DNA of 64,000 bases from Nocardioides speluncae (GTDB taxonomy: Bacteria; Actinomycetota; Actinomycetes; Propionibacteriales; Nocardioidaceae), in the NCBI RefSeq assembly GCF_003121585.1, contig NZ_QEOO01000007.1:1-64000 (forward strand). Reading direction: 5' to 3'. Each line of letters begins with the position of its first letter. The stretch's first letter is position 1. Under the pieces are notes generated by a model. It saw only the letters and a list, made by a program, of their open reading frames with translations, searched no databases and was not told the origin of the DNA. Below are positions 20,267 to 24,931 of the stretch, piece after piece. Both the position numbers and the translations under genes were made by a program.

Positions 20267-22048
20267 CTACTCGACGGACGAGAGCTTGGCGAGCCGCGCG
20301 GTGAGCAGGGGGAGCCGGTGGCCGTTGCCGTGCAGGGCGAGGTACTGCTCGCCGAAGACCGCCAGCAGCGCGTCGTCGAGTCGGCGTACGGCGCGGGTCG
20401 GCTGCCGGTAGCCCATTCGGGCATGGATCGCGGCGGTGTCGACGGAGCCGAGGAGGTCGGCGAGCTCGTCGAGCGAGGTGATGCCGAGCTCCAGCAGCAG
20501 CCCCGAGATCCATGCGTAGTGGTCGGTGCGGGACCAGCCGGCGTCGGCGTACCGGCCCGCCAGGAACGTCGCCAGGTCCGGTGCGCTGATCCGTGGGTCG
20601 GCCGCGTCCGTGGGTAGCTGCTGCTCGGTCATCGACGCCTGGATCCGCTCGCGGATCGCGGAGAACTCCCGGTCGGCGAGCTCGAGCAGCCCGGCCGCGA
20701 GCGTGAACCGCCGGTCGAGGTCGCGCGCGTGCTCCTCGGGGATCGAGCCCTTGTAGCGGATGTCGTGCTCGAACTCGGCCCAGGCGTGCTGCAGCACCGT
20801 GCGCACCTGCACCGACGCGGCATACCCGTCGAGCGCTGTGTACGCCGCGGGTGCCTGGCGGTCTTGGTCGAAGGAGACGAGCAGGTGCCGGCTGGCGTAC
20901 CCGAACCGGCCCTCGTCGGCGGTCTCCTGGCCGAGGTCGCGGTCGTGAAGTACGACGAGCTGGTCGCCCAGCAGGTCCGCGACCGCGGCCACGTCGCTCT
21001 GCAGGTAGAGGATCACCCGGACGCCGACCGCGTCGGTGATCTCGGTCAGCGGGTCGGCGTACAGCGGCCGGCCGTCGGCCCGGCGCCGGCCCGCCTTCCC
21101 GGCGAACGAGGCGACGCTCTTGGCCCGTCCGGTGACACTCAGGTAGTTGATGCCGGCGTCGTCGAGCAGCCCGGTCACCATCGCGATGAAGCCGTCGGTG
21201 ACCTCGACCAGGTCCGGCTGCTTCGCGGCGTACTCCCGGACCGCGCTGGCGACCGGGTCGCTCTGTCGCGCGGCCTCGGTCGGCTCCGGTGCCCGCTCGC
21301 GGGCCGCGGGGGCGTGATCGGCGGGCAGCGTCGGGGTGACGATGTAGCCCTCCGCAAGGTCGCCGTACGTCGTGGTCAGCTCCGGCCGGCGGGCGGCGTA
21401 CATCGCGACGTAGGCACAGACCACCGCATCGACCTGGTCCTCGGCCCGGCGCAGGTCAGCCTTCCGAGCGGCGTCCTCGACCTGTTCGGCGAGCTCGCGC
21501 CAGGCCTCGCTCTCGCCGAGGTGGATCGCCGGGCTGGCATCGGTCAGGCCCTCGAGCAGTCGCATCAGCCGCAGCAGCTCCGCCTTGAGCTGGGGGAGCG
21601 GCCGGCCGGGCTTCTGCTTGTACTTCAAGGTCCGGCCGAGCCGGAACAGCGAGACCGTCGCCGGGTGCGGGTAGACCTCGATCGCCCGGCGCTTGACGGT
21701 CGATGCCGGGTCGATGTCGAGGTCGAGCGCCGCCGCCAGCACGGCGCCGCGCGGGGTGCCGCTGAACTCCGGCTTGGCAGTGTTCGACGGATGGGCGCCG
21801 GCGTCGTACTTGGCGAAGTCGCGGTTCAGGGCGCGCTCTGCCGGCCGGTTGCCGGACGGGTTGGTGACGATCAGCGGGGCGTCGATCGCGACCAGGCACC
21901 GGCCGGCCGTGTACGGCGCGAGCGCAGTCGTGATCGACTCGTCGGTCGTGGCTGCCGACAGGTGGACCAGCTGGCCCTTGCCGGTCAGCACGGCAAGGCC
22001 GGTGGGTCGCTTGCTGCCCCAGGCTAGGTCGATGCCGACGAAGTGCAC
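20267..22048 (-). CDS. DUF429 (RNase H-like) - RelA/SpoT synthetase fusion protein
   Basis: A 593-residue two-domain protein. Residues about 1-240 form a DUF429 domain, a predicted RNase H-like nuclease, with acidic positions Asp7 (GIDLAW), Asp56 (AIDAPL), Glu124 (EVYPH) and Asp207 (EDQVDAVV). After a linker (about 240-265), residues about 270-450 match the (p)ppGpp synthetase domain: TEITDAVGVRV near 336-345, GYASRH at 383-388 and VQVRTVLQHAWAEFEHDIRYK at 413-433. No HD hydrolase domain is present. GTG 22048 is chosen because the longer frame overlaps the upstream gene; GTG 22054 is also possible. A similar pairing, RNase HII plus synthetase, is known in mycobacterial RelZ. Roles here are inferred. 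Confidence 0.85.
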   Translation of the reverse strand: MHFVGIDLAWGSKRPTGLAVLTGKGQLVHLSAATTDESITTALAPYTAGRCLVAIDAPLIVTNPSGNRPAERALNRDFAKYDAGAHPSNTAKPEFSGTPRGAVLAAALDLDIDPASTVKRRAIEVYPHPATVSLFRLGRTLKYKQKPGRPLPQLKAELLRLMRLLEGLTDASPAIHLGESEAWRELAEQVEDAARKADLRRAEDQVDAVVCAYVAMYAARRPELTTTYGDLAEGYIVTPTLPADHAPAARERAPEPTEAARQSDPVASAVREYAAKQPDLVEVTDGFIAMVTGLLDDAGINYLSVTGRAKSVASFAGKAGRRRADGRPLYADPLTEITDAVGVRVILYLQSDVAAVADLLGDQLVVLHDRDLGQETADEGRFGYASRHLLVSFDQDRQAPAAYTALDGYAASVQVRTVLQHAWAEFEHDIRYKGSIPEEHARDLDRRFTLAAGLLELADREFSAIRERIQASMTEQQLPTDAADPRISAPDLATFLAGRYADAGWSRTDHYAWISGLLLELGITSLDELADLLGSVDTAAIHARMGYRQPTRAVRRLDDALLAVFGEQYLALHGNGHRLPLLTARLAKLSSVE

Positions 22049-22106: not shown

Positions 22107-22346
22107 TCAGCGTGCGCCCAGGACCTCGAGGACCTGATCGATCTTGCCGTCCATGGTCTCCAACCGTCCGTCGACGGCGTCGAATCGTGCGTCGAGGGCA
22201 TCGAATCGGATGTCGTGCTTGTCGACGCGCTTGGTCAGGGCGAGGACCTTGGCGTCGAGGCTCAGCAGTAGGTCGTAGATGGCCTTCACATCGTCGTCCA
22301 ACTGCCGCACCTTACGGGTGAGTTCTCGTGGCGTCATCGTGTCCAT
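22107..22346 (-). CDS. Small coiled-coil protein
   Basis: A 79-residue protein that is almost entirely heptad repeats (VRQLDDDVKAIYDLLLSLDA ... RFDALDARFDAVDGRLETMD), predicting a long coiled coil. It ends 58 bp upstream of the DUF429-synthetase gene on the same strand and may be its operon partner, for example as a regulator or oligomerisation partner, but that is only from position. The ATG at 22338 is an alternative start. Confidence 0.7.
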   Translation of the reverse strand: MDTMTPRELTRKVRQLDDDVKAIYDLLLSLDAKVLALTKRVDKHDIRFDALDARFDAVDGRLETMDGKIDQVLEVLGAR

Positions 22347-24367: not shown

Positions 24368-24931
24368 ATGTGTCCCACGATCCGAGTCGACGACGAGGTC
24401 TACGCGCTGTTGCAGGCGCGGGCCGAGGCATTTGTCGACACTCCGAACACCGTGCTCCGCCGGATCCTCGAACTCGAGCCCGCGCCGCGCACGACCGCCA
24501 ACCGCCCACGACGCGGTGAGGGCGAAGGGGCGAGCCGGCGGCTCGCTCGAATGATCCACGACGGCCTCCTCGAGCAGGATGAGCAGCTGGTCTGGGATCG
24601 TCGCAACAGCGGCACCCAGCACACCGCGCGCATCGGCGAGGACGGCCGCCTCCACCTCGACGACGGGTACGTCGCCGACAGCCCGTCCGCGGCTGCGAAG
24701 TACCTGGCCGGCTACGAGGTCAACGGCTGGCGCGTCTGGAAGCGCGCGAGCGACGGCAGCTCCCTGCGTGAGCTCTGGGGCGAGCGCGACGGCGAGTCCC
24801 GCCGCGGTCCCCGGCGGAACGGCCCGCGCCGGCACGGCCGTCGCGGCGAGGGCCCGCGCGGTGAGTTCCGCAGCGAAGGCCGCGGGCGCCCGCGTCGTAC
24901 GCCGTCCGAAGACGCCGAATCCGACGACTGA
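24368..24931 (+). CDS. RHH (SeqA-like) N-terminus plus RAMA domain protein
   Basis: A 187-residue protein with three parts. Residues 3-37 (PTIRVDDEVYALLQARAE ... TPNTVLRRIL) resemble a ribbon-helix-helix/SeqA N-terminal dimerisation and DNA-binding segment. Residues about 65-140 (LLEQDEQLVWDRRNSG ... YEVNGWRVWKR) match the RAMA domain, associated with restriction enzymes and adenine methylases and suspected of reading modified DNA. The tail is rich in Arg/Gly and should bind nucleic acid non-specifically. No methylase is adjacent, but an orphan adenine-type methyltransferase lies at 52633. Function is inferred from domains only. Confidence 0.75.
   Translation: MCPTIRVDDEVYALLQARAEAFVDTPNTVLRRILELEPAPRTTANRPRRGEGEGASRRLARMIHDGLLEQDEQLVWDRRNSGTQHTARIGEDGRLHLDDGYVADSPSAAAKYLAGYEVNGWRVWKRASDGSSLRELWGERDGESRRGPRRNGPRRHGRRGEGPRGEFRSEGRGRPRRTPSEDAESDD

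Follow-up and report, generated by a model that had tools for sequence, protein, structure and literature searches.

The window analysed here (64,000 nucleotides of the Nocardioides speluncae contig NZ_QEOO01000007.1) encodes a protein of 593 amino acids that is very probably an orthologue of RelZ (MS_RHII-RSD, MSMEG_5849), belonging to the fused, DUF429-bearing branch of the actRel proteins and carrying a non-canonical synthetase site. The position held by the catalytic Glu in other alarmone synthetases is occupied by Ser in this protein and by Ser, Gln or Ala in nearly the whole RelZ clade, with the rest of the pocket frozen. It is rather probable that this natural substitution marks either a Glu-free, Mg-independent synthesis of pGpp or a nucleotide sensor gating a RuvC-like nuclease of RNA-DNA hybrids. 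The features of the gene and the evidence on which each is placed are as follows.

20267..22048, minus strand: relZ-type gene, DUF429-RelA/SpoT synthetase fusion of 593 amino acids (open frame, Pfam, aligned starts of the relatives)
21389..22036, minus strand: DUF429 domain, residues 5-220 (PF04250, AlphaFold2 model, RuvC structural matches, conservation)
21257..21319, minus strand: variable linker of low model confidence, approximately residues 244-264 with limits set by eye (pLDDT, spacing)
20633..21241, minus strand: small alarmone synthetase (SYNTH) fold, residues 270-472 (PF04607, phmmer matches to RelQ/YjbM, VIA)
20813..20815, minus strand: codon of Ser412, aligned with the catalytic Glu (E139 of RelQ, E174 of RelP, E323 of RelSeq) (alignments)
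20279..20587, minus strand: helical C-terminal region conserved across the clade, residues 488-590 (model helices, invariant columns of alignment A1)

The gene consists of one uninterrupted frame of 593 codons that begins with GTG at 22048 and ends with a stop codon at 20267-20269. Relatives were collected by a scan of genome contigs, in which 477 of the 585 pattern-matching stretches encode a relative, placing the frame far beyond chance. An ATG or GTG lies exactly opposite residue 1 of the query in 77 of the best 80 of these 477 relatives (the exceptions being L084, L098 and L100), and the start at 22048 is therefore very probably right; a longer frame of 644 amino acids starting at 22201 was dropped on the same grounds. 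The 77 relatives and the window protein constitute alignment A1, from which the three exceptions were omitted for their start codons, while a second alignment, A2, comprises 53 of the 80 and the window protein. L001, L002, L133, L134, L135, L137 and L140 were set aside as repeats, L140 by assumption.

Pfam places a DUF429 domain at residues 5-220 (E-value 7.6e-27) followed by a RelA_SpoT domain at residues 307-434 (3.4e-13), both above the curated cut-offs, and recognises no further family at E <= 1 in the protein and hence no HD hydrolase. The preliminary description, which had proposed an RNase H-like DUF429 domain joined to a RelA/SpoT synthetase without a hydrolase, is thus borne out in its account of the architecture. 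The AlphaFold2 model of the whole protein, computed from 78 aligned sequences, has a pLDDT of 88.6 and a pTM of 0.50, indicating that the parts are mostly well modelled and their mutual placement is not. The pLDDT falls below 50 at residues 252-261 within the linker, and the gap between the two domain profiles varies from 28 to 72 residues among 227 fused ORFs (duplicates included). By sequence, the solved structures closest to the protein belong to small alarmone synthetases of RelQ and RelP type, the best of which cover residues 304/305-472; the DUF429 half has no counterpart among solved chains, even in a search with a family profile, and residues 473-593 have no Pfam match at E <= 1. Sequence and structure comparisons agree in assigning the SYNTH part to the fold of the RelP/RelQ-type small synthetases, with VIA Z-scores of 15.9 to 2be3 and 15.2 to RelQ (5ded).

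The preliminary description had aptly likened the protein to mycobacterial RelZ and had then taken it for an independent fusion employing a different nuclease from the RNase HII of RelZ. The latter two proposals do not stand, since the nuclease domain of RelZ is itself DUF429. Atkinson et al. (2011, PMC3153485) describe actRel proteins with an N-terminal DUF429 in M. smegmatis, M. gilvum and M. vanbaalenii; the RNase HII activity of MSMEG5849 is attributed to its Duf429 domain (PMC4429107); and the RNase HII domain of MSMEG_5849 is stated to have been called domain of unknown function 429 until 2012 (PMC4300193). The window protein is 63% identical from end to end to the fused protein of Mycolicibacterium vanbaalenii (L066), in which Pfam identifies the same two families, and end-to-end identities are 61-70% to the 77 fused relatives of A1 and 62-66% to its named mycobacterial fused members, M. 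smegmatis itself being outside A1. In the trees of both halves, the window protein and the mycobacterial fused proteins group together, apart from more distant DUF429 domains and synthetases. An independent fusion unrelated to RelZ, for which no support was found and which depends on taking the RNase HII domain of RelZ as another family, is therefore hardly credible. The pairing of DUF429 with RelA/SpoT in Actinobacteria was noted by Majorek et al. (2014, PMC3985635), and Ruwe et al. (2017, PMC5566576) mention the DUF429-synthetase fusion in Mycobacterium and Marmoricola; the fusion is thus already known, and the present protein adds a member of the Nocardioides family to RelZ/actRel. Like RelZ of Mycobacterium smegmatis, it is an actinobacterial protein with DUF429 preceding the synthetase and no hydrolase, and it differs from RelZ in coming from outside the mycobacteria.

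A survey of the phylogenetic range of the fusion, as had been suggested at the outset, found it in several actinobacterial genera beyond the mycobacteria. The best 80 of the 477 relatives are all fused and come from Nocardioides, Mycolicibacterium/Mycobacterium, Kineosporia, Georgenia, Ornithinimicrobium, Cellulomonas and others. Within the family of the window organism, 257 of 294 genomes match at E <= 0.001, some over the full length and some in the synthetase half only; approximately 40 of these (counted by eye, mostly one genus) match weakly, above 1e-20. At the level of the class, 112 of 394 genomes match and 28 carry the full-length fusion (read from the listing), and in the phylum 16 of 396 genomes match at E <= 1e-40, three of them over the full length and all three from the class of the window organism. 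In the mycobacterial genus, 255 of 297 genomes match; 89 near-full-length fusions were counted by eye among the matches listed, and nearly all of the other matches listed are DUF429 alone, ending near residue 245 or slightly past it. Stops inside these DUF429-only matches are probably due to alignments overrunning the true end near residue 245, and the matches are therefore not called pseudogenes. Conversely, 20 matches to the synthetase half were fetched from the family; DUF429 is absent from the open frame of 19, while the twentieth (L114) is fused through a longer linker.

Genomes with DUF429 only (many mycobacteria) or the synthetase only (some of the family of the window organism) therefore exist, though RelZ is reported to need both halves in one chain, its isolated domains being inactive (PMC7591505). 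In the DUF429 tree (65 of 146 rows), the mycobacterial proteins consisting of DUF429 alone are interspersed with fused ones. In three mycobacterial loci (L053, L083 and L097), the fused relZ gene is accompanied by a frame encoding DUF429 alone; in the tree, these frames lie with other DUF429-only proteins and with a single fused one (L155). A first SYNTH tree used 81 of 161 rows; in a later one, a quick tree of 46 of 232 rows with groups chosen post hoc, a single clade was rejected for the fused members (p 6e-6) and likewise for the synthetase-only members (p 4e-5). These patterns are most simply explained by an ancestor that was already fused and by several subsequent losses of one or the other half, with gene transfer as a possible alternative.

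The DUF429 half is predicted to be a nuclease of the RuvC/RNase H type. Modelled alone (residues 1-243, positions 21320-22048), it has a pLDDT of 93.7 and a pTM of 0.93, and the best VIA matches are RuvC resolvases followed by the RNase H-fold protein TEFM, with a Z-score of 10.1 and an rmsd of 3.1 A over 140 residues to RuvC of D. radiodurans. Seven acidic residues (D7, D56, E71, E124, E203, D204 and D207) are conserved. Foldseek gave no match to the model at E <= 0.001, GspL and sugar kinases being among its top rows, and the nuclease reading accordingly draws on the VIA matches, the conserved acids and the published reports. Majorek et al. (2014, PMC3985635) assign DUF429 to clade D of the RNase H-like superfamily together with RuvC; the predicted fold is shared with the nucleases of this clade, whereas identity to them is low and RelZ is reported to act in the manner of RNase H and not to resolve junctions (PMC7591505). 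The label RNase HII is misleading as to family, since residues 1-243 match only DUF429 in Pfam at E <= 1, leaving the RNase HII profile (PF01351) unmatched, and the RNase HII match of this genome is a separate gene (C25:33346-33885). RNase HII chains are absent from the VIA rows shown, which are led by RuvC and TEFM, although this excludes nothing. In the genome, whose assembly is 96.71% complete, DUF429 is matched nowhere else, and RelA_SpoT in just one further protein, a long one of the Rel type. Residues 1-246 also match PDC-S44, a PADLOC candidate defence family, at 2.2e-84; this family is mentioned in one paper (PMC13366656).

The synthetase motifs, which the preliminary description had regarded as kept, are retained only in part: GYASRH and VQVRTVLQHAWAEFEHD are present, while VQVRT is preceded by Ser412 in the window protein, where the RelQ and Rel proteins examined have Glu. 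The motif reads ASVQVRT, so that Ser412 adjoins the invariant QxRT with no alignment gap between, at the position where Glu opens the motif ExQIRT in canonical synthetases. We take the corresponding RelQ residues to be D72 and E139, matched to the alignment by offset. Of the Asp and Glu pair typical of RelP and RelQ, the window protein has the Asp (Asp339) and lacks the Glu. In RelP, E174 and D107 complete the Mg2+ sphere (PMC7983052); in RelSeq, Glu323 is proposed to bind Mg2+ and to take the proton of the 3'-OH, and the D264G and E323Q variants show no detectable synthetase activity (PMC13299517).

The replacement extends over the clade. For these counts, ORFs of at least 80 amino acids in the fetched loci that match the SYNTH profile at E <= 1e-5 were placed in one profile alignment, identical SYNTH stretches being counted once; domains scoring above 300 bits without DUF429 were classed as SYNTH-only members of the RelZ clade and lower-scoring ones as other synthetases, and mycobacterial origin was assigned from record titles or membership of the mycobacterial family. 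Among 218 distinct RelZ-clade domains, position 412 is Ser in 144, Gln in 64, Ala in nine and Glu in one. All 101 fused mycobacterial members have Ser; the 90 fused members from elsewhere have Gln (63), Ser (17), Ala (9) or Glu (1), and the 27 SYNTH-only members have Ser (26) or Gln (1). The change to Gln is also the one that abolishes synthesis in RelSeq (E323Q). By comparison, Glu was found in all 14 other small synthetases, these being the ones lying in the fetched loci and not a systematic sample, and in all eight Rel-type proteins (L001, L161-L166 and L303) found with a motif that did not demand Glu. The only RelZ-clade member found with Glu (L305/L158, genome G044) has its SYNTH half near the root of the SYNTH trees and its DUF429 half beside a Nocardioides protein; judged from these placements, its Glu may be ancestral or regained.

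Around this position, 35 positions within residues 300-450 are invariant across the 218 domains, among them R308, K310, S314, K318, D339, R344, D369, D371, Y384, H388, Q414, R416, E427, H428 and K433, which speaks against decay of the synthetase domain. The 101 mycobacterial fused members suggest that MSMEG_5849 itself carries Ser. A fused RelZ with Ser is encoded in the two genomes (G975 at 99% and G723 at 98%) that best match a query with 1uun, which we take to be MspA of M. smegmatis, and no 100% identical match to the query is present among the matches listed from 396 genomes. No discussion of the Glu loss in the RelZ clade was found in the literature searched, the primary RelZ papers (PMC3416543, PMC6941529) being beyond its reach; the nearest remark is that of Ruwe et al. 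(2017, PMC5566576), who mention that RelS and Rel of C. glutamicum depart slightly from ExQIRT without saying at which residue. RelS of Corynebacterium glutamicum, set against the window protein by description only, is likewise an actRel, converts GMP to pGpp (PMC5566576) and, unlike the window protein, lacks DUF429. Two SYNTH-only proteins of the mycobacterial family (L193 and L194) retain the Glu and branch well away from the RelZ clade; an identity with RelS is not implied. RelQ/YjbM and RelP share the SYNTH fold with the window protein (VIA Z-score approximately 15) but possess the catalytic Glu where it has Ser412, and the RelQ and RelP chains matched are without DUF429.

Reported activities of RelZ comprise the cleavage of RNA-DNA hybrids and R-loops and, as a hexamer, the synthesis of pGpp, ppGpp and pppGpp with a substrate preference of GMP over GDP over GTP; inhibition of its pGpp synthesis by single-stranded RNA and pppGpp is also reported (PMC7591505). 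By analogy, the N-terminal DUF429 domain of the window protein would cut the RNA in RNA-DNA hybrids or R-loops, the C-terminal SYNTH fold would bind ATP and GMP, GDP or GTP to make pGpp or ppGpp, and removal of the hybrids could thereby be coupled to an alarmone signal. The near-total absence of the Glu bears on how RelZ, a small alarmone synthetase reported to prefer GMP, makes its product. We consider it most likely that synthesis is slow or Mg-independent and that another group stands in for the Glu, or that the transfer is substrate-assisted. The pyrophosphokinase activity of MS_RHII-RSD is described as Mg2+-independent (PMC5566576), which would fit the loss of a Mg-binding Glu, and the near-total loss in the clade may explain this property. 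D369 is a candidate for the replacing group since it is invariant in the RelZ clade and not in other synthetases, and E425, which is Gln in one of 211 sequences, is likewise a candidate.

The main competing reading holds that the synthetase half is a pseudoenzyme or a weak enzyme that would mainly sense guanine nucleotides, ATP or RNA and so control the DUF429 nuclease. It agrees with the absence of the Glu in 217 of 218 domains while R308, K310, K318, D339, R344, Y384 and H388 remain invariant, with the inactivity of RelSeq E323Q, and with the reported inhibition of RelZ by single-stranded RNA and pppGpp. Against this, synthesis of pGpp and (p)ppGpp by RelZ has been published (PMC7591505), which argues either that the Glu is dispensable or that the assay results arose in some other way; the clade never varies at Asp339, the counterpart of the second Mg-binding acid, although a pure sensor would have no obvious need of it; and the SYNTH-only members point to some role of the SYNTH domain on its own. 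On account of the published activity, an altered but real alarmone synthesis is considered the probable function and a mainly sensory one is viewed as doubtful, a small share of the probability being left to other roles.

A role in defence, with an anti-phage or toxic (toxSAS-like) synthetase and DUF429 as the effector nuclease, could be argued from the PDC-S44 match given above and from a match of the synthetase part to PDC-S33 at 2.2e-8; the neighbours in the window do include an HNH protein and a RAMA-domain protein. However, the gene is widespread on chromosomes, as evident from the 257 family genomes described above, no relative was confirmed in the viral contigs searched, and no clear partner gene recurs across genera by what is a crude method, so that we regard defence as very improbable. 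A viral origin was dropped in view of the search of viral contigs, and no phage or plasmid record had a place covering 80% of the protein.

The search for partner genes clustered the ORFs in the flanks of 80 loci and the window, with no gene caller, and gave, apart from relZ itself, no broadly shared conserved partner; one huge mixed cluster, to which all 81 sources contribute and whose 845 ORFs are mostly shadow frames, could hide a real one. Two small clusters extend from the mycobacteria to a few Nocardioides/Propionibacteriales loci, and the others include some confined to mycobacteria together with one Actinomycetota MAG and some found only in Nocardioides. To the left of relZ in the window, nrdR and a B12-dependent ribonucleotide reductase lie on the plus strand; nearer to it, the HNH protein, a DUF5709 protein and an S15-type hydrolase are encoded on the minus strand. 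A protein encoded at 24368-24931 on the plus strand combines a SeqA-N-like start (3.7e-5) with a RAMA/DUF4357 region (1e-17), a pairing that is, to our knowledge and as an impression, uncommon. Just upstream of relZ and on the same (minus) strand, a frame of 79 amino acids at 22107-22346 contains heptad-like repeats (RFDALDARFDAVDGRLETMDGKIDQVLEVL) and looks like a small coiled-coil protein.
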